Below are positions 51,323-63,719 of a stretch of DNA of 64,000 nucleotides, piece after piece. How positions within the stretch are numbered: the first letter of the stretch is position 1; every line of letters starts with the position of its first letter. Source of the stretch: Bacteroidota bacterium (GTDB lineage Bacteria; Bacteroidota; Bacteroidia; B-17B0; Aurantibacillaceae); NCBI GenBank assembly GCA_030692515.1, contig JAUXZS010000015.1, forward strand, positions 372,001 through 436,000. Reading direction: 5' to 3'. A program made the position numbers and the translations under genes. The notes under the pieces were generated by a model. That model ran no database searches. It saw only the letters and a list, made by a program, of their open reading frames with translations, and had not been told where the DNA came from.

Positions 51323-51362
51323 GGTCCTGTGGCCGTCCCGATAGCTATCGGGAGGCTAGGCT
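51323..51362 (+). pseudogene. tRNA-Cys 5' fragment interrupted by a palindrome
   Basis: GGTCCTGTGGCCG (51323-51335) equals the first 13 bases of the tRNA-Cys gene. Then comes the palindrome TCCCGATAGCTATCGGGA (51336-51353), then GGCTAGGCT matching the tRNA again (51354-51362). The palindrome replaces AGT of the tRNA. The rest of the tRNA is absent. Confidence 0.75.
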
Positions 51363-51387
51363 GAGAAAAAACTCATAAAAATAAAAA

Positions 51388-51461
51388 GGTCCTGTGGCCG
51401 AGTGGCTAGGCTCAGCTCTGCAAAAGCTGCTACAGCGGTTCGAATCCGCTCGGGACCTCCA
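51388..51461 (+). tRNA. tRNA-Cys (anticodon GCA)
   Basis: A complete 74-base cloverleaf with encoded CCA: the acceptor stem GGTCCTG pairs with CGGGACC, the D-arm GCC...GGC is present, the anticodon stem CAGCT/AGCTG has loop CTGCAAA, and the T-arm AGCGG-TTCGAAT-CCGCT follows. The anticodon is GCA and the base before CCA is T, as expected for cysteine. The last 15 bases before the end form the left attachment site of the integrated element. Confidence 0.95.
51445..51459. repeat. attL (15-bp direct repeat)
   Basis: TCCGCTCGGGACCTC at the 3' end of tRNA-Cys. It is identical to 63670-63684. The element supplies the following CA that completes the encoded CCA. Confidence 0.9.
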
Positions 51462-51592
51462 CGTTACTTAAGTGTAACAAACGTTTGCCTCGGAACGTTA
51501 GTAAAATAAGGGTTTTTACCGAAACCCTTATTTTACAACTTCCAAATTTTAGTGTGTTTTTAGGCTTTTGCTTCACTATTTATTCACTAAAT

Positions 51593-52774
51593 ATGAAGCA
51601 GACATCAATCAATCTACCGAAAGTAATTTACCGGACAGATCAACCAAAAAAGGACGGATCTAATTCATTCTACCTTCAATTGCATCACAACAAAGTGAAA
51701 AAATTTATTTCACTCAAAGTGTCGTGCACTAAGGATTTTTACGATGAGAAAAACAATCGCATCAAAAAATCTCATCCCTTCAGTGAGCAATACAATTTGA
51801 TAATTGAAACCCAACTTTTTAAAGCTTCAAAAATTATTCTCGATGCAAGAATAAAAGATGAACCGATCACTATTAATCAGTTTCTAGAAAAATACCTAGG
51901 CAAAGCTTCAGATAATAACAAGATGAATTTTTACTCCTTTGTAGAAAGCGAAATTGAGGTTGAAAAAAAAAGAGCAAACAAGGCGCCACTCACAATAAAA
52001 AAATACACCTATCAACTCAATAAATTGAAAGAGTTCAGGAGTAAATTGGAGTTTAACGACATCACTCCTTCATTCTTAGCTGATTTTGAAGAACACATGA
52101 GGGTTACGCTAGGAAACGAAAAAGGAGGGTCTAACAACACTTTAAAAATGATCAGGAAGTTTGTTTACGTTGCAATCAAAAAAGACTTGACAAGTAATAA
52201 CGCCTTTAAAGATTTTCAAATAAAAGAGGATTCAACTGGTGATATAAAATTCTTAACGCTAGTTGAGTTTCAGAAGATAAAGGAGTATTATAAAACACTC
52301 TTGTCTGGACACAAACACCATCTTACCTTAAAGTCTTTCATATTTTCTTGTTGCACCGGGTTGAGATATGGAGACGGGAAAAAATTTAAGTTGAATGACA
52401 TAAATAGTAATTGCATTCTTATAAAAACTCAAAAGACAAAAAAAGCGGTGTCTATTCCTTTAATACCCCTGGCTAAGGAAATGCTTAACTATGATCTAGA
52501 TGCTGGTTTACCGAACCTAAAAACACCATGTGTCCAAACATGTAATACAGCATTGAAGGAGATTGCTGCGGTTTGCAAAATTGATAAACCAATTACAACA
52601 CACTATGCAAGACACACTTTTGGTTGTATTGCTTTAAACAATGGTATATCAAGGGAAACCGTACAAGCAATTTATGGGCATTCAACAAGCAAACAAACGG
52701 ATCATTACGCTATTTTAAATAACGATACCAAAGTCGCTGAAATGGAAAAGTTGGCCGCAGTGATGACACTCTAA
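51593..52774 (+). CDS. Tyrosine integrase of the tRNA-Cys element
   Basis: Start set at 51593 (MKQTSINLPKVIYRTDQPKK); the longer frame from 51485 begins in the attachment region and has no sense there. The 393-residue product has an arm-binding-type start, a SAM-like core-binding domain (NKMNFYSFVESEIE, LTIKKYTYQLNKLKEF) and a catalytic domain: R in TGLRYGD, K in IKTQKTKKAVSIPL, HYARHTF and GHSTSKQTDHYA with the tyrosine. All catalytic residues are visible. It lies right beside attL, as expected for the site-specific integrase. Confidence 0.9.
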   Translation: MKQTSINLPKVIYRTDQPKKDGSNSFYLQLHHNKVKKFISLKVSCTKDFYDEKNNRIKKSHPFSEQYNLIIETQLFKASKIILDARIKDEPITINQFLEKYLGKASDNNKMNFYSFVESEIEVEKKRANKAPLTIKKYTYQLNKLKEFRSKLEFNDITPSFLADFEEHMRVTLGNEKGGSNNTLKMIRKFVYVAIKKDLTSNNAFKDFQIKEDSTGDIKFLTLVEFQKIKEYYKTLLSGHKHHLTLKSFIFSCCTGLRYGDGKKFKLNDINSNCILIKTQKTKKAVSIPLIPLAKEMLNYDLDAGLPNLKTPCVQTCNTALKEIAAVCKIDKPITTHYARHTFGCIALNNGISRETVQAIYGHSTSKQTDHYAILNNDTKVAEMEKLAAVMTL

Positions 52775-53077
52775 CGTAAGTCAGATTAAATGAAAATTGA
52801 ATTTAGTAGTTTGAGCAACGTTGATGTTTAATTATTTGCAACGCTCCCTGCAACGGTTCAGCAACTATAACGTTGCAATGGGTAAAACTACCATTGCAAT
52901 AAAACACAAAACATTGATTTTACTGGTTTTTTTGATGTACAACGGTTAAAAATCGTTACATTTTCACTGGTTTCAAAACACAAACATAACCTTATTTAAA
53001 TAAGCAGCAACGTGAAAATTGCCGTGAAACTTTGCAATGAACAATGCTTAAATTAAACTTAACGAGAATAAGTAAAA
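52775..53077. other. Repeat-rich non-coding region after the integrase
   Basis: About 300 bases with no gene. It has many copies of GCAACG or its complement (52815, 52839, 52850 and others). A perfect inverted pair, TTGCAATGG (52873-52881) and CCATTGCAA (52891-52899), is also present. These may be integrase arm sites or a terminator region between convergent genes. Confidence 0.55.
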
Positions 53078-53644
53078 TTATTTCTTCTTGAGGTGTTTTT
53101 CGATGCCGGGATAGCTTATCTTTTTGCCATTTACCTTCATGAAGCTTTCGATTTCATCCTTTGGAACATATTTTAAAATTGTTTCTCTAAGCTTTTGATC
53201 ATCGGAAATAGAATTTACTTTTTCTATTAATAACTCGTGTTTGAATCTTAATTCATCAATTATGTCTGATATTTTATCTTCAGCTTCGCGATAATTCTTC
53301 AGAGCAAAAGTTTTATTGTGTACAGCATTAAAGAACCTCCATGTTTCGGTGCCATTTGCAATAGCGCAATTAACAAGCCCTAAATATGAAGCCATTATTC
53401 TCGCCATCCGATTATATTCCTCAATACTCACACTGTTCTTTAACTCTTCGTCTGATTTTAGAAAGTAGGACGGAGTAGTTCCCAAGTTTTTTGCAATCAA
53501 TTCGATTGTTTCAAGCTTGGTTGAATTGTTTTTTAAGGCATTATGTAGTCCGATCTCAGAAAGTCCAATCATTTTGGCAAAATCCTTTATGGAAACATCC
53601 TTTTCCTTTAAAATTTCTTTTAGTCTTTTTGAAAAATATATCAT
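53078..53644 (-). CDS. XRE-family repressor (CI-like)
   Basis: A 188-residue protein: residues 5-65 are an XRE helix-turn-helix (LKEILKEKDVSIKDFAKMIGLSEIGLHNALKNNSTKLETIELIAK). A helical C-terminal part (KISDIIDELRFKHELLIEKVNSIS) probably mediates oligomerisation. It is divergent from the small Cro-like gene at 53777 across 132 bases that include an AATTATG/CATAATT inverted repeat, which is the layout of a lysogeny switch. Confidence 0.8.
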   Translation of the reverse strand: MIYFSKRLKEILKEKDVSIKDFAKMIGLSEIGLHNALKNNSTKLETIELIAKNLGTTPSYFLKSDEELKNSVSIEEYNRMARIMASYLGLVNCAIANGTETWRFFNAVHNKTFALKNYREAEDKISDIIDELRFKHELLIEKVNSISDDQKLRETILKYVPKDEIESFMKVNGKKISYPGIEKHLKKK

Positions 53645-53700
53645 TTGAAAATCAGATTGTTAGGTTAAAATGGTTTTTATCGGTGTTAAAAACGAATTTT

Positions 53701-53721
53701 AATTATGTTTAAATCATAATT
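53701..53721. promoter_or_regulatory. Candidate operator between divergent CI/Cro-like genes
   Basis: AATTATG (53701-53707) and CATAATT (53715-53721) are a perfect inverted repeat around TTTAAAT. A further related half-site, TTATGAT, follows at about 53724. The position between divergent regulator genes is typical of an operator. Confidence 0.6.
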
Positions 53722-53776
53722 AGTTATGATATTTGTATAATTAAAACCTCTAAACGATACAAATATAATCAAAATT

Positions 53777-53989
53777 ATGGAAAATGTAAACACCCAAAAC
53801 CCAGTAAAAAAAATCATTGAAACCCATGCAAAATATGGCTTTGTCCCTTCAAAGGAGTTTTATCAAAAAGTTCAAATTAATAGCAAAAGGTGGTCCCTTT
53901 TATTGCATGGTAAAAAACCTGTAACAGTTGTAGAATTAAAAGCAATCTGTTTGTTTTTTAATGCCAACATAAACGAATATACATCCTAG
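53777..53989 (+). CDS. Small Cro-like HTH protein
   Basis: A 70-residue protein (VKKIIETHAKYGFVPSKEFYQKVQI, RWSLLLHGKKPVTVVELKAICLFFNANINEYT) that fits a short HTH domain with a recognition helix around residues 33-50. It is divergent from the CI-like gene, hence the Cro-like reading. Role inferred from position. Confidence 0.65.
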   Translation: MENVNTQNPVKKIIETHAKYGFVPSKEFYQKVQINSKRWSLLLHGKKPVTVVELKAICLFFNANINEYTS

Positions 53990-54011
53990 TCAATCTAAAA
54001 CTCTTAGTTAA

Positions 54012-54287
54012 ATGGAAACACACGAACAAGTAGAACAGCTTCAGCAAGATGTTGCAGCGTTGAAAACAGAAGTAAACGAGCTTAAAGAAATCGTAAAAGG
54101 TAGTGTATCTGAGAAAATGTTTACGGTTGCGCAAGCTGCTGTAAAACTTGGCTTAAAGCCTTCCGGTGTTAATTGGCACATTAGGAAAAACGCTCTGAAA
54201 GCTTCAGGTAAGCGATACAAGAAAATTAAAGAAAGTGACCTTAACCAATTTATAGAATTAAATCGCAAACCCGAAGCAAGAGCTTAA
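54012..54287 (+). CDS. Coiled-coil/HTH excisionase candidate
   Basis: A 91-residue protein. A coiled coil (VEQLQQDVAALKTEVNELKEIV) precedes a winged helix (KMFTVAQAAVKLGLKPSGVNWHIRKNALKASGKRYKKIKESDLNQFI). Small HTH proteins of this layout next to recombinases act as excision factors. It lies 22 bases after the Cro-like gene. Direct evidence for excision is lacking. Confidence 0.65.
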   Translation: METHEQVEQLQQDVAALKTEVNELKEIVKGSVSEKMFTVAQAAVKLGLKPSGVNWHIRKNALKASGKRYKKIKESDLNQFIELNRKPEARA

Positions 54288-54350
54288 ATGACACACACAA
54301 AAGGCAAACAAAGTATTTCAAATCCTATCGGTAAATAGGTAAACGAAAAA

Positions 54351-54373
54351 CGCCAACGGTTGCAACGTTGGCG
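54351..54373. repeat. Perfect inverted repeat CGCCAACG/CGTTGGCG
   Basis: Eight-base arms at 54351-54358 and 54366-54373 surround GTTGCAA. The stretch has no T run and lies 32 bases before the recombinase start, so a protein-binding site is more likely than a terminator. Confidence 0.6.
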
Positions 54374-54405
54374 CTAATTAGTAACAGTAATAAAAATTAA
54401 TTGAC

Positions 54406-55767
54406 ATGACAAAGATAACAAAAAACCACATTACCTATTCATTCATTTTTTACCACTCATTAAAAAAAATGAGATTCGATGGCAAGGCTCCTATTTATGG
54501 AAGGCTTACCGTATTTGGGATAAGAAACGAATTTTCAACTTCAATATATCTAGAACCCTGCTCATACAAAGGGAAAGAAATCATCTCACATAACGATACT
54601 GATTTGAACTTTATTATTCAATTATTTGAAGTGCTAAAAACAGATTGCAACATTGTACTTGAAAAGTATGCTTCTGAATGCAAAGAGCCTGGGGATTTCA
54701 TTAATAAGGCAGTTCCTGAACTAAAAGAAATTGCGACAAGGTGTTTTGATGCACAAAAAGAACAGCAAAGCAAGGTCATGAAAACCATTCACGAAAAGAA
54801 AAAACTTAATCGTAGGGCTGAAAAAATGAGATCATTAGGAAGTTTTAGAGAAATTTCTGAAGAATATCTCGAAAAGAAAAAACACATGATTGATATTGAT
54901 TTTTGTTTTAAAACGTGGAAACGAAAAGAGAAGGCGATAAACATTGTTCTTGAATTCATTAAAGCAAAATTTAAACGAAATGATTTTTTTGTTTCAGATA
55001 TAAAAGAATCCTTCTTAAATGATTTTCAACAATATTGTAAAGCTAATCTAAAATGGGGGCAGTCTCATTACAGACGAACAGTTATAATCTTAAAGGCTAT
55101 TATTAATTACGCAGTAGTTTCAGATTATTCAGCGAAAAATTATTTGGCTTTTGTAAAAATAAAACGTGGCGATAAAAAAGGTGATATAAAGCACTTAAGT
55201 GTTGAACAGCTTCGCATATTACTGAATATTAAATTGAGTAGTCACAGTCATAACTTTGTTCGAGATGTTTTTTTGTTTCAGGTATTTACCGGATTGAGTT
55301 ATATAGATCTATACAACTTTTCAATAGATAATATTCATTGCAAATTGGATGGAACAAAATATATAGTTGTGGCACGACAAAAAACCGGTGTAAATTCAAT
55401 ATTGCCTTTGCTTCCCGAAGCCGAAAAAATCATTCAAAAGTATTCAGATCTAAATCATAGGGTTGATAATGGAATAAAAAACCCGGGCGTTCTTCCTGTA
55501 TATACAAATCAAGTTATGAATAGAATTCTGAAGGAGATAGCAGTAGTATCTAATTTGCCAAGAGAACTACTTACTACACACACTGCTCGTAAAACATTTG
55601 CCACTCTAATAATATCAAACACAAATATTAGTATGGAAACAGTTAGTCGCATGATTGGTCATTCAGAACAACGCACGACTGCTAAGTTTTATGCTCAGGT
55701 AAATTCAGGACGAATTTTCAATGAAATGAAAGGCTTCTCATTTGATAACCTTTTAAACCAAAATTAG
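54406..55767 (+). CDS. IntDOT-like tyrosine recombinase
   Basis: A 453-residue protein with an N-terminal arm-binding-like domain (FYHSLKKMRFDGKAPIYGRL), a SAM-like core-binding part (FKTWKRKEKAINIVLEFIK) and a C-terminal catalytic domain. HTARKTFAT gives the HxxR, GHSEQRTTAKFYAQV the second histidine and tyrosine. The usual first arginine in TGLR is serine here (FTGLSYIDLYNF), as in IntDOT of CTnDOT, where that position is also a serine. It is distinct from the element's integrase and is followed 2 bases later by a degenerate recombinase. Confidence 0.85.
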   Translation: MTKITKNHITYSFIFYHSLKKMRFDGKAPIYGRLTVFGIRNEFSTSIYLEPCSYKGKEIISHNDTDLNFIIQLFEVLKTDCNIVLEKYASECKEPGDFINKAVPELKEIATRCFDAQKEQQSKVMKTIHEKKKLNRRAEKMRSLGSFREISEEYLEKKKHMIDIDFCFKTWKRKEKAINIVLEFIKAKFKRNDFFVSDIKESFLNDFQQYCKANLKWGQSHYRRTVIILKAIINYAVVSDYSAKNYLAFVKIKRGDKKGDIKHLSVEQLRILLNIKLSSHSHNFVRDVFLFQVFTGLSYIDLYNFSIDNIHCKLDGTKYIVVARQKTGVNSILPLLPEAEKIIQKYSDLNHRVDNGIKNPGVLPVYTNQVMNRILKEIAVVSNLPRELLTTHTARKTFATLIISNTNISMETVSRMIGHSEQRTTAKFYAQVNSGRIFNEMKGFSFDNLLNQN

Positions 55768-55769
55768 CT

Positions 55770-56324
55770 ATGAGTGGTTTAACCGAAAATGAACTGGATA
55801 GATTTTTACTAAAATGTAAAAACACCAAAGGCCAAGATAAAAAAAACGCTCTGAAGGCGTTCATTATACGCTGCTATACTGGGCTAACACTTAAACAGGT
55901 GTTGTCGCTTACATACGGTGATATCCAAGATAATCATATATTAAAAATAGAGCGTAGCAACTTGGAATTAATTTGTAAAGAAATAAGCAATGAGCTAAAA
56001 GAATTAATTGGATCCGGCCCGAGTGAATCCAAAATAATATATCCTATTAGCGAAAAAACAATTAATGGGGCCATTTTGGAAATTCGATCTGAAATAGGTA
56101 TACAAAGGTATATTACTAACTACCACGCTAAACCCACCTACATTAATTTTGCAACAAACTTAAATGATGATTTTTCATTACCTATTTATCAGCCTTCAGA
56201 TAACTTGATACTAACGTGTAGGCGTTGTGAGATATTAACGCCACACACATTGAAGAACATTAATAAAAACATCGAAAAAATAGAATACCGTTGTAATTAT
56301 TGCGATGAACATCGGTCATTATAA
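55770..56324 (+). CDS. Degenerate tyrosine recombinase with C-terminal zinc ribbon
   Basis: A 184-residue protein. Residues 25-55 (FIIRCYTGLTLKQVLSLTYGDI) copy the first conserved block of the tyrosine recombinase catalytic domain but lack the arginine. The HxxR box is HAKP (NYHAKPTYINFATNL) and no tyrosine nucleophile follows. A CRRC...CNYC pair (LTCRRCEI, YRCNYCDE) forms a zinc ribbon at the end. It starts 2 bases after the IntDOT-like gene. It may be a non-catalytic partner of that recombinase; the partner role is inference. Confidence 0.7.
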   Translation: MSGLTENELDRFLLKCKNTKGQDKKNALKAFIIRCYTGLTLKQVLSLTYGDIQDNHILKIERSNLELICKEISNELKELIGSGPSESKIIYPISEKTINGAILEIRSEIGIQRYITNYHAKPTYINFATNLNDDFSLPIYQPSDNLILTCRRCEILTPHTLKNINKNIEKIEYRCNYCDEHRSL

Positions 56325-56345
56325 ATTCAAATAAAAACTAAAACC

Positions 56346-56678
56346 ATGAAAACAACAGAAACAACAAACAAAATTAGCAACGTGTTAAATGCAGTAGTTA
56401 ATATGAATGATTTAGCTGGCAATGAATTTTTAAAGTCTGATATCGACGCTTTATTCTTATCATTCCAAATGAGTAAATATTGTAATGAGATTACTCCTGG
56501 CGATCGTGAAAGAATAACCCTCATGTATTTAAACATTAAAAAGCTTGCTGAAGCTTCAAGCGGTTTGAAGTCTGAGGATTTTGACAAGTCATTTCCTTTA
56601 AACATTAGCAAGTATTTAATTGAAAAGGATCTGTTGGATGATTACATGATTTATTGTAAATCAGACCAGGATTCCTAA
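56346..56678 (+). CDS. Hypothetical helical protein
   Basis: A 110-residue, mostly helical protein (ISNVLNAVVNMNDLAGNEFLKSDIDALFLSFQMSKY, ITLMYLNIKKLAEASSG). No motif is recognised. It starts 21 bases after the degenerate recombinase and precedes the primase-helicase gene, so it probably belongs to the same transcript. Function unknown. Confidence 0.55.
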   Translation: MKTTETTNKISNVLNAVVNMNDLAGNEFLKSDIDALFLSFQMSKYCNEITPGDRERITLMYLNIKKLAEASSGLKSEDFDKSFPLNISKYLIEKDLLDDYMIYCKSDQDS

Positions 56679-56757
56679 TAATTAATAATTGTTTTTAACC
56701 GGACATGCCACCAAGCGAAGGTGAATAAATGATTTAAGCACTCAAATACCCTTAATA

Positions 56758-59346
56758 ATGATAAAATATACTTTTGAAAAAAGCCCAAAACCTAAAGGCA
56801 AGTGTCCAAAATGCAATCAACATAAGAAGTTTCGATATTATGAGGGTTTACCTCGTGAGTTTGGAAAGTGTGATCGTGAAAGTGAATGCCAATACCATAA
56901 TAAACCAGATGCTGAAGCGTTAAAAAATTTAGGTGTAGATACAAACCTAGGGTTAACAAGTCAAGTAAAAATTGAATTGAAAACGGTTTTTCCTAGTGAT
57001 AATGATTTGAAATGCTTGAATAATTTAAATTCACCTTTCCATACATTTTGTTTTGATAAACTGAAAATTACAAAAGAACACTTACAAAAATGGAAAGTTG
57101 GATCTGAAGGACAGGTAACGAAATTTATTTATTCATTGCCAAGTGGTAAAAATATCAACGTTATAACAATTCATTATCAAATAAGTAGTGATGAAAAAAA
57201 TTGTAAGCGTATTAAAGCGAAACCTCCATATTCTTTAAAACCGAATAAAGGCGAGAAATACGAGTTGTGTTTGTTTGGTGAACATCTATTGTCAAACAAA
57301 ATAATTTGTCTTGTAGAGAGCGAAAAAACAGCCGTTATTGCAAGTTTTGTTTACCCTGAATTTGATTGGATAGCTACTGGTGGGGCAAATAAGCTTACAG
57401 ACGATAAAATTTCTGCGCTTTTCAACAAAGAAGTTTATTATTTAAATGATGCAGATAAGGCAGGAAAAGAAAACAGCACCATTAAAAAGTTAATCGCATA
57501 TAAACTTAACTATAAAATTATTGATTTGTTTCCAGATCGTAACGATGGTTATGATTTAGCGGATGCAATTATTGATGGAAATAAGCCGGAAATTAAACCG
57601 GTCGAAAAGATAAAAAGCGAAAATGAAATTGAAACAGAATGTTTTGATAAATATGGTTTTTTTGTAAGGAATAATGAGTATTATATTAAGCAACAAATCA
57701 AACATTATACTAAGGATCTAAAAATTTCAAATTTTACAATGAAGTGGATTTATAGGCTAAATGATGAAAGCGATAATATTCCAATGTTATTTGAGTTAAT
57801 TAAGGAGGATAAATCAACTATGTTACTTGAAATTACAAGTAAGGATTTATTAACGTCAACAAATTTCAGTGCGATTGTTTTGAAGGGTGGTTTTAATTAC
57901 AACGGAACAACTTTTGTCTTTAAAAATATTATTGAAAGCCTTTATGATGAGAGTAAAGAAGCAATTTACTTAAGTACATTAGGACAAAACCTTGAGAATG
58001 ATTTTTATTCTTTTTTTAATGGCGTTTTAAAAATCAATGGTGAATATAAAATCTGTGATGAACATGGTGTTGTTGAACTCGATAATAAATATTTTTATTT
58101 ACCAAGTGGTAAAAAGGGAAATGAAAATAACGTAGATTTTGTTGATGATAGAAAATTCAAGTTTACGCCCGGGACACTTACTTTAAGTTTGTTCGTCGAA
58201 AAAATTTATAATATATATGAGATCAATGGCTTAATTGGCTTATGTTATACAATAGCAACAATACACAGAGATATTATTTTTTCTGAAACAAAGTTTTTTC
58301 CTTTTTTGTTTTTATACGGTGGAAAAGGATCCGGTAAGTCGACTTATATTAATTTCTTTATGAATTTTTTCGGAGATCCTCAACCGGAAACTACTGAAAA
58401 TAGTACAGATAAAGCAATTGAAAGAAAATTTGCTCAAATCAACAATAACTTGCAATACATTAAAGAGTTTAATCCAACCTTTGAAGATAAAATAAAAGAT
58501 ATTTTAAAAAATGCTTACGATGGTGTAGGTTATTCCCGGGCGCAAGTTTCACAAAACAATAAAACTAAAACATCAATTGTTCGTTCAGGTTTAGCTATTG
58601 ATGGAAATTACTTTCCTACAAAAGATGATGCTTTATTTTCGAGATTAATATTTATGCTTTGGCAACCAACATTTTCTGACAAAACAAAGGAAGATACACA
58701 AGATCTTCAGGACCTTTTTAAAGCAGGTAATGGTTTAATATTCTCCGATATATACAAACAAAGAGAGGTATATAAAGATGGATTTAGCAAGCTTTACAGG
58801 CAAACAATAATTGAGCTAAAAACTTTGTGCCGGAATAAAAAGATAAATTTCAGTGAGCGTGAAATAAGCCATATTGCTTTGATGGCTGTTGTTTTTAAAT
58901 TATCATTGAAAGAGATCCTTCCAAGTGATCTTGCTTATACAATGTTTGTTGATTTTTTAATAAAGGGCGCTCAAAAACAAACTCAAATAACGCAAAGTAT
59001 TGACGATGTAAACAAGTTTCTTGAAGCTTTGAATACTTTACACCAAAGATCTATTTTAATGGAGCAAAAACACTTTGTGAGAGAGCAGAGCGTAGGATTT
59101 GATTATTTGTATATCAATTTTAATTTATGCCAATTGGAGTATGCCAAGTATATTAAGGAAACGGGTGATGCATTTAATATTTCAAAAGAAGGATTAAAGC
59201 AAAAATTAGAGTTTAGTGCTTCTAAAAACTATCCTTATACCAAACCTAACGAGTTATATTTTCAAAAGAAATTTATGGGTGTAAACCAACGCTGTTTTGT
59301 CCTAGAAGTTGAACCGTGGACTTTTGATTTACTTGGTTTACAATAG
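56758..59346 (+). CDS. Element primase-helicase (Zn finger, TOPRIM, P-loop ATPase)
   Basis: An 862-residue protein. The start holds a zinc-binding finger (GKCPKCNQHKKF, GKCDRESECQYH). A TOPRIM domain comes next (ICLVESEKTAVIASF with the glutamate; YLNDADKAG with the aspartate pair). A C-terminal ATPase domain has Walker A FLYGGKGSGKST (about residues 520-531) followed by a superfamily-3-like region. This is the layout of plasmid/phage primase-helicases, and N-terminal parts resemble Bacteroidota DUF6371. It sits directly before the GGTAACA repeat array, consistent with origin-linked replication. Confidence 0.8.
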   Translation: MIKYTFEKSPKPKGKCPKCNQHKKFRYYEGLPREFGKCDRESECQYHNKPDAEALKNLGVDTNLGLTSQVKIELKTVFPSDNDLKCLNNLNSPFHTFCFDKLKITKEHLQKWKVGSEGQVTKFIYSLPSGKNINVITIHYQISSDEKNCKRIKAKPPYSLKPNKGEKYELCLFGEHLLSNKIICLVESEKTAVIASFVYPEFDWIATGGANKLTDDKISALFNKEVYYLNDADKAGKENSTIKKLIAYKLNYKIIDLFPDRNDGYDLADAIIDGNKPEIKPVEKIKSENEIETECFDKYGFFVRNNEYYIKQQIKHYTKDLKISNFTMKWIYRLNDESDNIPMLFELIKEDKSTMLLEITSKDLLTSTNFSAIVLKGGFNYNGTTFVFKNIIESLYDESKEAIYLSTLGQNLENDFYSFFNGVLKINGEYKICDEHGVVELDNKYFYLPSGKKGNENNVDFVDDRKFKFTPGTLTLSLFVEKIYNIYEINGLIGLCYTIATIHRDIIFSETKFFPFLFLYGGKGSGKSTYINFFMNFFGDPQPETTENSTDKAIERKFAQINNNLQYIKEFNPTFEDKIKDILKNAYDGVGYSRAQVSQNNKTKTSIVRSGLAIDGNYFPTKDDALFSRLIFMLWQPTFSDKTKEDTQDLQDLFKAGNGLIFSDIYKQREVYKDGFSKLYRQTIIELKTLCRNKKINFSEREISHIALMAVVFKLSLKEILPSDLAYTMFVDFLIKGAQKQTQITQSIDDVNKFLEALNTLHQRSILMEQKHFVREQSVGFDYLYINFNLCQLEYAKYIKETGDAFNISKEGLKQKLEFSASKNYPYTKPNELYFQKKFMGVNQRCFVLEVEPWTFDLLGLQ

Positions 59347-59392
59347 TTTTTAAAAATGATTTTCAACTGTACTTTATTTTTTGTTTTTTCTC

Positions 59393-59724
59393 TGTTACTT
59401 TGTTACTTTTTTTATTTTTTCCTTTATTTACGGCACATTAAAGCTTTTTTTGCGGTAACAAACGGTAACAAAATGCTTAAAAAGGTAACAAAAAGGTTAA
59501 AAAAGTAACAGAAAATTGAAAATTTCAAAAAATCGATAAAAAAAGTCGTTTTCTGTTACCATAGTGAGAGTAGTAACGCAGCTAATTTTTAAAAAACTTT
59601 CCTTTATTCATGGCGGTAACAGCATTTGTTAAAATTAGACCTTCTGTTACCGTGTTTGTTACCGTTCAATGTCTTTAAAATCAAATATTTAAGCCTTAAA
59701 AATCGATTCGGTAACAAGGTAACA
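59393..59724. repeat. Iteron-like GGTAACA array, candidate replication origin
   Basis: Nine exact copies of GGTAACA or its complement occur in 330 bases. The direct copies begin at 59454, 59464, 59484, 59615, 59710 and 59718, and the inverted ones at 59554, 59645 and 59657. Near copies begin at 59393, 59401 and 59504. Four start 10 or 20 bases apart (59454, 59464, 59484, 59504), so they lie on one face of the helix. The stretch 59347-59785 is otherwise AT-rich and gene-free, right after the primase-helicase gene. Confidence 0.75.
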
Positions 59725-59785
59725 GGAAAAAAATGGGTTTTCAGTATAGAAATGAAAATACGATCTATTTAATTAAATTTACTCT

Positions 59786-60106
59786 ATGGGATTATATGAC
59801 TTCAGATCAATTTATTTGCCTTATTGCTTACAGAAGCAAAAAGATGGTGGTTATCTTGTTTTAAACAGAAACTACAAGCCAGTTGGCTTTAATACGCAAG
59901 AACATATAAAATATGAAGACTTCCCCGTTGCAACAAAATTCCCCGGCATAAATAAAAAAACCGCAACACTATTATCTATTAATGCTTCAGATGACGTTAA
60001 AGAAATATTCTTATATGATGATGCCACAAACCCAATACGAAACAAAAAGAACATGGATTCATACCTGGAGAAAGTAGAAAGGTTGGCAAAGCTTAAAACA
60101 AAATAA
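59786..60106 (+). CDS. Small conserved element protein
   Basis: A 106-residue protein (MGLYDFRSIYLPYCLQKQKD, YLVLNRNYKPVGFNTQEHIKYEDFPVATKF) with an SH3-like pattern in its first 60 residues and a helical end. Short proteins of this 'L-P-Y-C-L-x-x-x-x-x-G-x-Y-x-x-x-N-R-x-Y-K-P' type occur in many bacterial mobile elements and have unknown function. It follows the iteron array and precedes a 270-base gene-free stretch. Confidence 0.6.
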   Translation: MGLYDFRSIYLPYCLQKQKDGGYLVLNRNYKPVGFNTQEHIKYEDFPVATKFPGINKKTATLLSINASDDVKEIFLYDDATNPIRNKKNMDSYLEKVERLAKLKTK

Positions 60107-60336
60107 GGATAACAAGATGTTCAACAAAAGTTAATTTTAATTTCAACGTTTGTTGCAACGAATATGTTGATTTCAATAATAGTTTTGTTGCAATAACTGA
60201 AACTCAAAATAAATTCAAATTTGATTTTTAATGATTTATTTGAACTGAAAATAAATGTAATTCTATTCAACTTAGGCTCAAACCCTTGTAAACACAAGCC
60301 CTTCATAATCATTCAGTACACTATTTTGTGATAGTA

Positions 60337-60362
60337 AATTTGATTTATATATAAATCAAATT
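60337..60362 (+). promoter_or_regulatory. 26-bp perfect palindrome at the promoter of the late-type gene
   Basis: Two halves AATTTGATTTATA and TATAAATCAAATT meet without a spacer. The TAnnTTTG box TAAATTTG (60335-60342) overlaps its left end. The ATG of the next gene is 14 bases after it. A dimeric repressor here would block transcription; a strong hairpin in the leader is another option. Confidence 0.7.
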
Positions 60363-60376
60363 AAAAAAAACAAAAA

Positions 60377-61630
60377 ATGGAAGGTATCCCTTTACAATTC
60401 TTAAACGGTGTAAATACCGGAGCGGCCGGACTCGGAAAAGAGTTCGACACACTCGAAACAACATTAAGTGGAATAAACGACATGGAAGGCTTAGGCTTCA
60501 CACATTTTAGAAGAGCGTTACATCAACATGTTAGAAACACTCGCAACAAAATTCAATCAACGCCTAATTCAGTTGAGGCCGTTTATGATCCAATTGAACT
60601 TGGAAGAATGTACGATGAATTGGATCAAGCCTTTGCCGGTGATGATGAATTATTAATGGGCGTATTAGAAAAACTTGCTGTTAGGGAACATTCTGCTTTA
60701 AGAAAAAGGTTTCCAAACTGTGAGAACGCAATACACAGACATGACGATCATTTGTATGGCGCTGTTTTTGGCGATCTTGACGATAAAATGCTAGATGCAT
60801 ATAGCGGCCTTGGTAAGAAAGATCGATCAGCTAAAAAGAGAGCAAGGTCCGAAAAGAAAGGTAAGTCAGGCCCAATGACAAAAATAAAAAATGCAGTTAT
60901 TAAGGCTAAAAGCGCCACGAAAAACGCTGGTGCTTCAACAAAAAAAGTATTGAAGAAAATAGGTAAAGCTGTTGTTAAACATAATCCGGTTGCTATTTCT
61001 GCTCGTTTAAGTTTTTTAGCAGCAATGCGCACAAACTTCGGTAAGATCGCTGAAAAAATGTACTGGGTTTACATGGGTAAAGAATTTGCATTGAGTAAAG
61101 GTATTTCTCTTGAATTTTACAACAATTGTGTAAAGCTTCACGAAAAGGCTTCACATATTTTTTTAAGTGTTTTAAAAGGTGATGAGAGTGCATTAAAAAA
61201 AGCCGTGTTAAATGGAAGGGCAGCAAAGAAAATAAAATCACAACTTGAAAAACGCGGAATGAGTGGCGTTGAATTATTAATGGGTTTATCCGGTGACGGG
61301 TTGGGCGTAACGGCTGCTGAAGTAAATGCGGCTTCATCTCTTTTAAAGCCCCTAGTAGAGATGGTAGCAAAATTTTTTAAAGAAAAACGTAAACGAGCTG
61401 AGGAAGAAGCCGAAGAAGAAAATGATGATTCAGTCGAAGCAGCAAACAATGTGAATGATGAAGAAGAAAGTTCAGGTGACAGCGAAACCACTACTTCAAA
61501 GAAATCTGGTTCTTCAAAGAAGTCCGGTTCGGGTGGTAAAACCGTAATGGTTGTAGGAGGAATTGGAATACTCGCTACAGCTTTGATCGTAATGAGCAGA
61601 AATAATAAAAAATCTGAAGTAGCTAAGTAA
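60377..61630 (+). CDS. Large late-type element protein with C-terminal membrane helix
   Basis: A 417-residue protein. Residues 1-150 are helical (IPLQFLNGVNTGAAGLGKEFDTLETTL and onwards). Residues about 155-200 are very rich in K and A. Residues about 200-330 hold the segment KHNPVAISARLSFLAAMRTNFG and more helices. An acidic/serine low-complexity linker follows, and one final membrane helix (VMVVGGIGILATALIVM). A family of this layout is common in Bacteroidota elements with no known role; the K/A-rich part and terminal membrane anchor suggest a surface or particle protein. It has its own promoter and terminator. Confidence 0.65.
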   Translation: MEGIPLQFLNGVNTGAAGLGKEFDTLETTLSGINDMEGLGFTHFRRALHQHVRNTRNKIQSTPNSVEAVYDPIELGRMYDELDQAFAGDDELLMGVLEKLAVREHSALRKRFPNCENAIHRHDDHLYGAVFGDLDDKMLDAYSGLGKKDRSAKKRARSEKKGKSGPMTKIKNAVIKAKSATKNAGASTKKVLKKIGKAVVKHNPVAISARLSFLAAMRTNFGKIAEKMYWVYMGKEFALSKGISLEFYNNCVKLHEKASHIFLSVLKGDESALKKAVLNGRAAKKIKSQLEKRGMSGVELLMGLSGDGLGVTAAEVNAASSLLKPLVEMVAKFFKEKRKRAEEEAEEENDDSVEAANNVNDEEESSGDSETTTSKKSGSSKKSGSGGKTVMVVGGIGILATALIVMSRNNKKSEVAK

Positions 61631-61650
61631 TTTGCCTTACTTAGTGCATG

Positions 61651-61686
61651 AAAAGCGTCTAAACTCATGGTTTTAGGCGCTTTTTT
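61651..61686 (+). terminator. Terminator of the late-type gene
   Basis: AAAAGCGTCTAAA pairs with TTTAGGCGCTTTT (one G-T pair) and is followed by T. It lies 21 bases after the stop at 61630. The 370 bases that follow hold no gene but several GTTGCAAC-like strings. Confidence 0.85.
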
Positions 61687-62056
61687 GTTTACATAGGCCG
61701 TTGCAGCGTATTTGTTGATCCAATAGCAACGGTGTTGTTTTAAAGCAGTTGCAACAACAAAAACTACATGTTTTAATTGTCATTTACCCAAGGTCAATGA
61801 CTCATTAATCCAATGAATAAAAAAGCCCAGATGGTTCTAGGCTCTAATTTCATTGAAGTGTTACCTACCAGGCGATAGACTATCTATCATTTGCTTTGTT
61901 TTTTTTAAATCTAGGGTTTTCCTTTAATTTTACTTTATTAACACTTTATTAACAAAATTACAAACTTTGGGATTTTAAAAACAAATAAGAAATTACTGAT
62001 AATCAATTACTTAAAATCATTTTTATAAAGTTAGGGATGTTGGAAGCAAATAAGAT

Positions 62057-63508
62057 TTAAGCCCAATACGGAACGTATGAGGCAAATTTTTTGGAACTAT
62101 TTTCCGGATCAGATGATTTAATCAAACCAGACTCAATGGTATCCGCAATGATTTTTGAGGCGGAAGAAACATTGTTCTTTGAAATATTAAATCTTTTCCT
62201 GACCGATTGATTATTAACCGGCTGATTACTTATATAATTAAGCGCAGTATGTTGATAGCAAGCGCGGACCCTATCTTCAAGAGTCATTCTAGATAAAGGA
62301 ATTGGTGCGTACATAATTACTCTAGTATAATTATCCCCTTTGATAAACTTTGGGGCCGGCAATTGATATGTTTCAATTGCATGAATAGCCCTATCAATAC
62401 CACTACCTCGCTCTTCACAAATTTTAAGCCTGCGCATTAAAGAAGCAAGTTTCTCGTTACGAGATTTAGGAGCAGTATCAATAAATCTATTTGTTTCAAC
62501 TAAAGGCACACCTGGGTTTGTTATTTCAATTCTATCTGTAAAAATTTCAATAAGAACACCAGTACCGGTTTCTGAAAAATCTTGATGAATTAAGGCATTA
62601 GCAACAAATTCGCGAATGGCTACTTCCGGATAAACTTTTACCTGTTTTCTTAACGCGTTTTCAATTACCTCATTCGAAGAAAGTTGATCCATAATATAAA
62701 CAACCAATCCCTCGAACCCTGAAGCATAACCACGTTTTCCGACTTGTTCTTTTAAAGCATTAATTCTACTTGTTTCTTTATAGACAATTACCCTAATAGT
62801 TTTTCGTTTGAGGTCTATAAAACTATCTATATCGCGTGTAAATAAAATGGCACCAAGATTTGTAACATTCCAAAATTCATTTGACTTGACAATTAATCCT
62901 TCTGAAGCAAGTGCGAGAAGTATATTCACTTTGGTATCTGGGAGCCTTAATTCAAGCATCCTAAAATAACTATCGTAGTCAAGCAACTTAACAACATCGT
63001 CTGAAGAAATATTGAACGCAGTAATTTGCGATTCAAAATCGATTCCTGATGAAATTGAAATAAGAAATTTAATTTCTTGGGCAGATAGTTTCACGGTTTG
63101 GCCGGCACTTCTTTTATAACTATAATGAAGATCTTTTCCTCTTAAATGTACAGGCTTATCATTTACCTCATGAATATAAATAATGAGAACTGGATTACCT
63201 CTAAATTCAATAACAGTATGATCAATAGAAAGCGCGGTGGATAAATTATTACGTGCAATATTACCTAGTTTTTGGACGATAACATCAATAGCGTTTTTTT
63301 CTAACGGTGCTGGAGACCCATCATTATTAATTCCATACGCGAGATAACCACCTTCCTGATGATTAGCAAATGCGCAAAGATGCTGTGCTAATCTATCTGT
63401 ATTGTCAGATAAGTCACTTTTCCAATCGATTTCATTCAATTCCTGAGGAATTGGATCCATGCTCTTAGAAAGCCATAGTTTAGCATTATCAATCCAACTA
63501 GTTAACAT
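62057..63508 (-). CDS. Schlafen AlbA_2-type ATP/nucleic-acid-binding regulator
   Basis: A 483-residue protein. The N-terminal third is the Schlafen AlbA_2 domain (ELNEIDWKSDLSDNTDRLAQHLCAFANHQEGGYLAYGIN, DKPVHLRGKDLHYSYKRSAGQTVKLS). A helical middle and a HATPase-like stretch follow (AIREFVANALIHQDFSETGTGVLIEIF, GSGIDRAIHAIETYQLP), and a winged-helix end (VRKRFNISKNNVSSASKIIADTIESG). Such proteins are often labelled RecG-like or transcriptional regulators and recur in element cargo and defence sets. It is the last gene before attR, with the opposite strand to the rest of the element. Confidence 0.8.
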   Translation of the reverse strand: MLTSWIDNAKLWLSKSMDPIPQELNEIDWKSDLSDNTDRLAQHLCAFANHQEGGYLAYGINNDGSPAPLEKNAIDVIVQKLGNIARNNLSTALSIDHTVIEFRGNPVLIIYIHEVNDKPVHLRGKDLHYSYKRSAGQTVKLSAQEIKFLISISSGIDFESQITAFNISSDDVVKLLDYDSYFRMLELRLPDTKVNILLALASEGLIVKSNEFWNVTNLGAILFTRDIDSFIDLKRKTIRVIVYKETSRINALKEQVGKRGYASGFEGLVVYIMDQLSSNEVIENALRKQVKVYPEVAIREFVANALIHQDFSETGTGVLIEIFTDRIEITNPGVPLVETNRFIDTAPKSRNEKLASLMRRLKICEERGSGIDRAIHAIETYQLPAPKFIKGDNYTRVIMYAPIPLSRMTLEDRVRACYQHTALNYISNQPVNNQSVRKRFNISKNNVSSASKIIADTIESGLIKSSDPENSSKKFASYVPYWA

Positions 63509-63669
63509 GATTCAAAATTACTAAAATTAGGATGAAATTGTTAGAGGAATATGTTTAGTCTAAAATGAGTATATTTGTTTAGAGAAGTAAAGGTGATAAA
63601 ACTTCACTATTATTTAAGCAAATCAGTAAAAACACTGTAATAACGAGTCTTGTAGAGGGTTTAAAAAAG

Positions 63670-63684
63670 TCCGCTCGGGACCTC
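63670..63684. repeat. attR (15-bp direct repeat)
   Basis: TCCGCTCGGGACCTC, identical to the end of tRNA-Cys at 51445-51459. It is followed by TG rather than CA, so the ancestral tRNA gene probably lacked an encoded CCA. The rest of 63509-63813 holds no gene. Confidence 0.9.
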
Positions 63685-63686
63685 TG

Positions 63687-63719
63687 AAAACCCTTTGTGT
63701 TTTGCGCAAAGGGTTTTTT
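63687..63719 (+). terminator. Displaced terminator of tRNA-Cys
   Basis: AAAACCCTTTG pairs with CAAAGGGTTTT and is followed by more T. It begins 3 bases after attR, where the terminator of the tRNA gene would have lain before integration. Confidence 0.85.

Follow-up and report, generated by a model that had tools for sequence, protein, structure and literature searches.

The element at tRNA-Cys and its genes

The window analysed here is a 64-kb stretch (positions 372,001 to 436,000 of contig JAUXZS010000015.1, assembly GCA_030692515.1) of a Bacteroidota draft genome of 68 contigs, and it holds a 12-kb integrated element at tRNA-Cys(gca). As read from the sequence, this insertion carries a tyrosine integrase with intact motifs, a repressor/activator switch and a primase-helicase beside iterons. 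It also encodes ORF10, a protein that by alignment is a protease-less homologue of the core protein of a conserved virus-like module, a membership that the preliminary description of the same DNA had missed. The eleven genes of the element are intact, and 83% of its length is coding. Its features, with those of its insertion site, are as follows:

51388-51461, + strand: tRNA-Cys(gca), the insertion target (ARAGORN, Rfam); the left repeat is its 3' end
51445-51459, + strand: attL core TCCGCTCGGGACCTC, exact repeat
51593-52774, + strand: tyrosine integrase (Pfam Arm-DNA-bind_5, SAM_5, Phage_integrase), catalytic motifs intact
53078-53644, - strand: Cro/C1-type repressor-like protein (Pfam HTH_26/HTH_3)
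53777-53989, + strand: small helix-turn-helix (HTH) protein, divergent from the repressor (HTH_26, E 9e-4, below cut-off), with a counterpart in a sister element of genome G010
54012-54287, + strand: HTH_17 protein of AlpA/excisionase type (Pfam PF12728, 30.6 bits against a cut-off of 27)
54406-55767, + strand: second tyrosine recombinase (Pfam), in which the motif TGLSY replaces TGLR
55770-56324, + strand: 184-aa protein, weakly recombinase-like (PHROG 216 at E 0.13 only, and sequence; low confidence)
56346-56678, + strand: 110-aa protein, no family match in Pfam or PHROGs
56758-59346, + strand: primase-helicase of 862 aa with Zn_ribbon_16, DUF6371 toprim and D5/DUF927-like helicase (Pfam, PHROGs)
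59390-59730, no strand assigned: iteron cluster, nine copies of GGTAACA/TGTTACC (counts and simulation)
59786-60106, + strand: 106-aa protein of a plasmid-borne family (tblastn)
60377-61630, + strand: ORF10, a 417-aa helical protein with a C-terminal transmembrane-like helix
62057-63508, - strand: SLFN_AlbA_2 and HATPase_c_4 protein, probable cargo (Pfam)
63670-63684, + strand: attR core TCCGCTCGGGACCTC, exact repeat
63686-63718, + strand: displaced tRNA-Cys terminator, a 15-pair hairpin directly behind the right repeat

In the window, the 15-bp sequence TCCGCTCGGGACCTC has exactly two copies (51445-51459 and 63670-63684), and the inserted unit therefore measures 12,225 bp. When both element flanks were joined and the resulting query was searched in 40 congeneric genomes, it matched genome G026 continuously across the junction (query 1-107, 94%), with tRNA-Cys and terminator side by side and an upstream flank resembling that of the window. 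Matches in G041, G005 and G034 (85-88%) span the junction too, while in the window's own genome the query was split into two pieces lying 12.2 kb apart. The repeats, the hairpin and the empty site in G026 thus agree with the preliminary description of a 12-kb tRNA-Cys element with 15-bp repeats, an adjacent integrase and a displaced terminator. The element has the same GC content as its flank (32.4%), so that composition is no mark of foreign origin. Just upstream of the true tRNA-Cys gene, at 51323-51365, lies a partial, degraded copy of it that is broken by the palindrome CCCGATAGCTATCGGG, and a similar stretch is found at C68:194439 of the same genome.

The integrase, which is the tRNA-proximal gene, retains the conserved Arg, HxxR and GH...Y and matches PF00589 above cut-off (E 8e-14). 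In the primase-helicase, the Zn ribbon, toprim E188/DAD and Walker A GGKGSGKST are intact; its match to DUF5906 (PF19263) is weak (E 0.0098; 17 bits, below the cut-off of 27.6), and a primase scan of viral contigs gave no match. The nine iterons fall within 341 bp between the primase-helicase and the 106-aa gene, against 0.03 expected and no more than two in any of 2000 simulations, and they probably mark the replication origin. An own primase-helicase and a likely origin, both put forward in the preliminary description, are thus upheld. The 184-aa protein, encoded next to the second recombinase, has lost or degraded catalytic motifs and carries C-terminal CxxC pairs; it is possibly a regulatory partner of that recombinase. 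Relatives of the 106-aa protein were found by tblastn in 64 plasmids, 51 of which are conjugative.

The preliminary description also held that transfer and capsid genes are lacking. Accordingly, no relaxase, terminase, portal or capsid family was matched in Pfam or PHROGs by any gene tested, or in NCBIfam by those scanned, and neither a relaxase nor a capsid of a known family turned up among the unassigned genes. The element is thus not an integrative and conjugative or integrative and mobilizable element by the relaxase criterion, and lysis genes are likewise absent from it.

The congeneric genome G010 carries a 9.0-kb element (L160), also in tRNA-Cys and bounded by a 20-bp repeat, with the same backbone in the same gene order: integrase, repressor, HTH proteins, second recombinase and primase. 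Identity between the two elements reaches 43% for the integrase, 54% for the HTH_17 protein and 35% for the second recombinase, while the primases are alike only in their N-terminal third (46% identical). Given that the site and the backbone are shared, a family of tRNA-Cys replicons exists, and as the sister element contains neither ORF10 nor the SLFN gene, ORF10 is an accessory gene of one such replicon. Neither the sister element nor the virus-like modules are enriched in the iteron motif, and no other close integrases were found in 87 genomes of the family.

ORF10 and the virus-like module

ORF10 matched no family in Pfam, PHROGs, NCBIfam or PADLOC and no known fold, and pattern scans for it returned nothing in viral or genome contigs. 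Its relatives came from a whole-genome search, which detected them in 30 of the 87 family genomes at E values down to 1e-49 (proteins of G049 and G009), nearly all others being situated inside one conserved gene module. Most relatives have 500-900 aa and begin with a transglutaminase-like cysteine protease domain (a weak DUF553 match, in which DCDC, H and D are conserved in the alignment); the part corresponding to ORF10 comes after this domain. In the alignment, ORF10 starts where the region behind the protease starts, and no relic of the protease domain was found upstream of it. The frame of ORF10 is long and intact and keeps the conserved residues of the family, which suggests selection. 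In a tree, it groups with the proteins of G049, G009 and G020 (support 99/96). Its structural model is all-helical, with a coiled coil and the C-terminal transmembrane-like helix, at a mean pLDDT of only 65; as the viral relatives are similar in their C-terminal part, ORF10 could co-assemble with them or compete against them. Four relatives that also seemed solitary (G057 C319 and C73; G034 C79 and C61) are in fact protease-bearing genes truncated at the ends of contigs.

The module opens with genes for a LEA_2-like membrane protein, the protease/ORF10-type protein, a glycine-rich membrane protein and a 239-aa protein. Next come four small proteins, one with a coiled coil and the other three apparently rich in beta strands as judged from sequence, and then an annexin-like membrane protein, a peptidoglycan-binding protein, lysins, a holin and a spanin-like protein. 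Families matched among module genes include Phage_holin_4_1, a GH19 lysin, Amidase_2 and an S24 repressor. All 51 loci longer than 20 kb with a gene for the 239-aa protein have the full set of LEA_2-like, protease, membrane, coiled-coil and spanin-like genes. The 239-aa protein has 57 copies in 32 of the 87 family genomes, four of them in the window's own genome (by profile), and 38 of the 395 class genomes sampled contain it. Thus, ORF10 led to a module present in about a tenth of the sampled class genomes. At least 98 loci were counted in Bacteroidota, Chitinophagaceae isolates included. Its cultured carriers include Flavisolibacter nicotianae X7X, Puia dinghuensis CGMCC 1.15448, Longitalea luteola SYSU D00799 and Flaviaesturariibacter aridisoli 17J68-15, so that its particle is directly testable. 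The 239-aa protein was absent from the 50,697 phage and 72,556 plasmid records searched, and a pattern-limited scan of IMG/VR caught only two contigs. A literature search of partial coverage, with most subscription papers outside it, found no description of the module.

A complete carrier lies in genome G049 (C28:65266-97342; L194, L039, L190), where a 32-kb provirus-like element with the module is inserted in tRNA-Pro, as read from the sequence itself, and has a 14-bp repeat of this tRNA's end at its boundaries. A tyrosine integrase stands beside the tRNA, the opposite end has an S24-type repressor and the displaced terminator, and the element also encodes a Phage_holin_4_1 protein, a GH19 lysin and polyvalent-type proteins (ddrB-ParB, LPD29). 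Judged by its gene content, its anatomy is that of a temperate virus, and it holds the closest relative of ORF10. Four module loci reside in the window's own genome (C68:252000-270000, C25:58500-80100, C58:355000-374300 and C68:216840-235042; L036, L037, L038 and L165-L166). The three larger units (∼18-21 kb) continue with genes of the methyltransferase, strawberry-notch-type helicase or RecA-like polyvalent kind. As none contains an integrase, they may have been domesticated or may move by other means.

Across most of residues 80-239, the 239-aa protein is modelled with pLDDT of ∼90 or more, its strands being arranged in a barrel-like manner, and viral jelly-roll capsid proteins top its matches in Foldseek and VIA. 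The best VIA match is the capsid of the archaeal virus SPV1 (Z 9.1; 146 aligned, root-mean-square deviation 3.5), followed by EhV-201 (Z 7.8) and by SH1, HHIV-2, HCIV-1, P23-77 and PRD1 (Z 6.5-6.9); the cellular enzyme PHM scores Z 7.4, and unrelated models reach Z 7-8. The fold is therefore only suggestive of a single jelly-roll, capsid-like protein, and the genomic context is the stronger support for a viral module. The module family represents widespread, apparently undescribed candidate tailless viruses.

Satellite, plasmid or provirus

In overall organisation, the element recalls phage satellites, which are generally 7-20 kb long, with att repeats, an integrase, regulation and replication genes and no structural genes (PMC13376191). 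Its size, ends and gene classes are alike, with att repeats, its own integrase and replication genes and no structural module. It differs in that no terminase subunit or capsid-remodelling gene was recognised in it and that any helper is putative. Closer still are the PICMI satellites of Vibrionaceae (PMC10803314), which likewise combine a PF00589 integrase, a PF12728 AlpA-type HTH protein and a DUF5906-like primase and have no capsid genes. Two of the three element-borne markers of the PICMI search model, the integrase and PF12728, score above cut-off in the element, and the third, DUF5906, is weak. However, PICMI occupy the fis site in Vibrionaceae, whereas the 12-kb element belongs to another phylum and, unlike PICMI, has a DUF6371-toprim primase and a virus-module gene. 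Given its insertion at tRNA-Cys rather than next to fis, it is not a PICMI.

The reading that we tentatively favour, at slightly less than even odds, is that of a satellite-like element that integrates and replicates itself, has a PICMI-like core and has captured a gene from candidate tailless viruses. Given that ORF10 belongs to a module found in the same genome and across Bacteroidota, viruses of this kind are a possible carrier of the element and might package it. A signal from a module virus would act through the HTH_17 protein to turn on excision, and the excised circle would replicate via its own primase-helicase, starting at the iterons. ORF10 could then replace the homologous viral protein in particle assembly or compete with it, with the outcome that the virus would carry element DNA out or that virus production would fall. 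A more specific version, that the element is a satellite of undescribed temperate tailless jelly-roll viruses of Bacteroidota whose protease-stripped ORF10 enters or subverts helper particles, is in our judgement somewhat unlikely. Satellites are known mainly from tailed phages, and to our knowledge no satellite of tailless jelly-roll viruses has been reported before; if this version is true, the element would be the first. A satellite-like replicon that carries part of a candidate tailless virus would widen the range of particles subject to helper parasitism.

Several observations weigh against linking the element to these viruses. ORF10 sits on a long branch (1.24), its closest viral relatives (the G049/G009/G020 clade) are not in the window's genome, and the resident modules hold only distant kin (E 1e-6 to 1e-7). 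Across the 87 family and 395 class genomes, ORF10 is the sole protease-less, solitary copy seen, so that there is no recurrent pattern of ORF10-bearing satellites. No packaging-type sequence common to the element and the modules emerged, with short-word BLAST giving 15-20-bp matches at chance level. In addition, the jelly-roll match of the 239-aa protein rises only slightly above the level of unrelated models, and the 106-aa gene, being plasmid-typical, suits a plain integrative plasmid equally well.

The element could also be an integrative replicon of plasmid type. It would then spread through mobilisation in trans, by transformation or by chance transduction, and ORF10 would be a passenger captured from a provirus that plays no role in this. 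We regard this as plausible, if rather less than probable: the iterons and primase-helicase resemble those of plasmids, the 106-aa protein is typical of conjugative ones, and the sister element in G010 manages without ORF10. On the other hand, the intact frame of ORF10 and its retention of the family's conserved residues suggest selection, and the Pfam and PHROGs searches found no relaxase. Alternatively, a dominant-negative ORF10 might shield host and element from the candidate tailless viruses, whose particles would not be used. Satellites often bear anti-virus genes (PMC10803314; PMC9122126), and a helical core and transmembrane-like tail without the protease domain are what a poisoning subunit might have; nevertheless, the genome still holds four related modules, and we consider such interference improbable.

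The grouping of ORF10 with provirus proteins in the tree would also fit a decayed provirus of the jelly-roll lineage with one structural gene left. This is very doubtful, as the genes are intact in a densely coding element, no protease relic precedes ORF10, no other module gene was detected, and the backbone matches another integrated element, that of G010, rather than a provirus. Moreover, the profile that finds four copies of the 239-aa predicted jelly-roll gene in the genome finds none in the element, which is therefore not a provirus of the module lineage and has only ORF10 in common with it. Least credible to us is an autonomous virus with its own type of particle. Unassigned genes remain and the size of the element would suit a small tailless virus, but it has no jelly-roll-type gene, its other unassigned proteins do not exceed 184 aa and it encodes no lysis functions. 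Of the three routes of spread left open in the preliminary description, a satellite or a plasmid-like element fits, but not a new type of particle built by the element, given the lack of a candidate major capsid gene and the predicted all-helical ORF10.

Further features of the module

The module resembles Portogloboviridae (PMC8459092) and Simuloviridae (PMC12642351) in its predicted jelly-roll protein, its membrane proteins and a unit of ∼18-32 kb. It differs from both in that no sequence similarity was found, in its bacterial hosts and lysis genes, and in having a transglutaminase-like protease and polyvalent-type proteins and no identified packaging ATPase. An identity with Charybdis elements (PMC12324425) was weighed and rejected, as these are small circular marine elements with probable archaeal hosts and another predicted fold.

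Neither a terminase nor a portal nor a clear packaging ATPase was identified in the module, and Terminase_6N had no match in the window's own genome. For the packaging ATPase, a RecA-like P-loop protein encoded at the module's downstream end is a candidate. The profile phrog_2 was dropped as a terminase marker because it matched 13 of the 14 control genomes. A membrane-anchored module protein (L038:13576-14304) and its homologues contain an annexin-like domain (PF00191, E 2e-7); in bacteria, annexins are rare. Finally, Longitalea luteola (L155:10001-11370) has two neighbouring genes of the 239-aa predicted jelly-roll family, a pair that recalls viruses with two jelly-roll capsid proteins.

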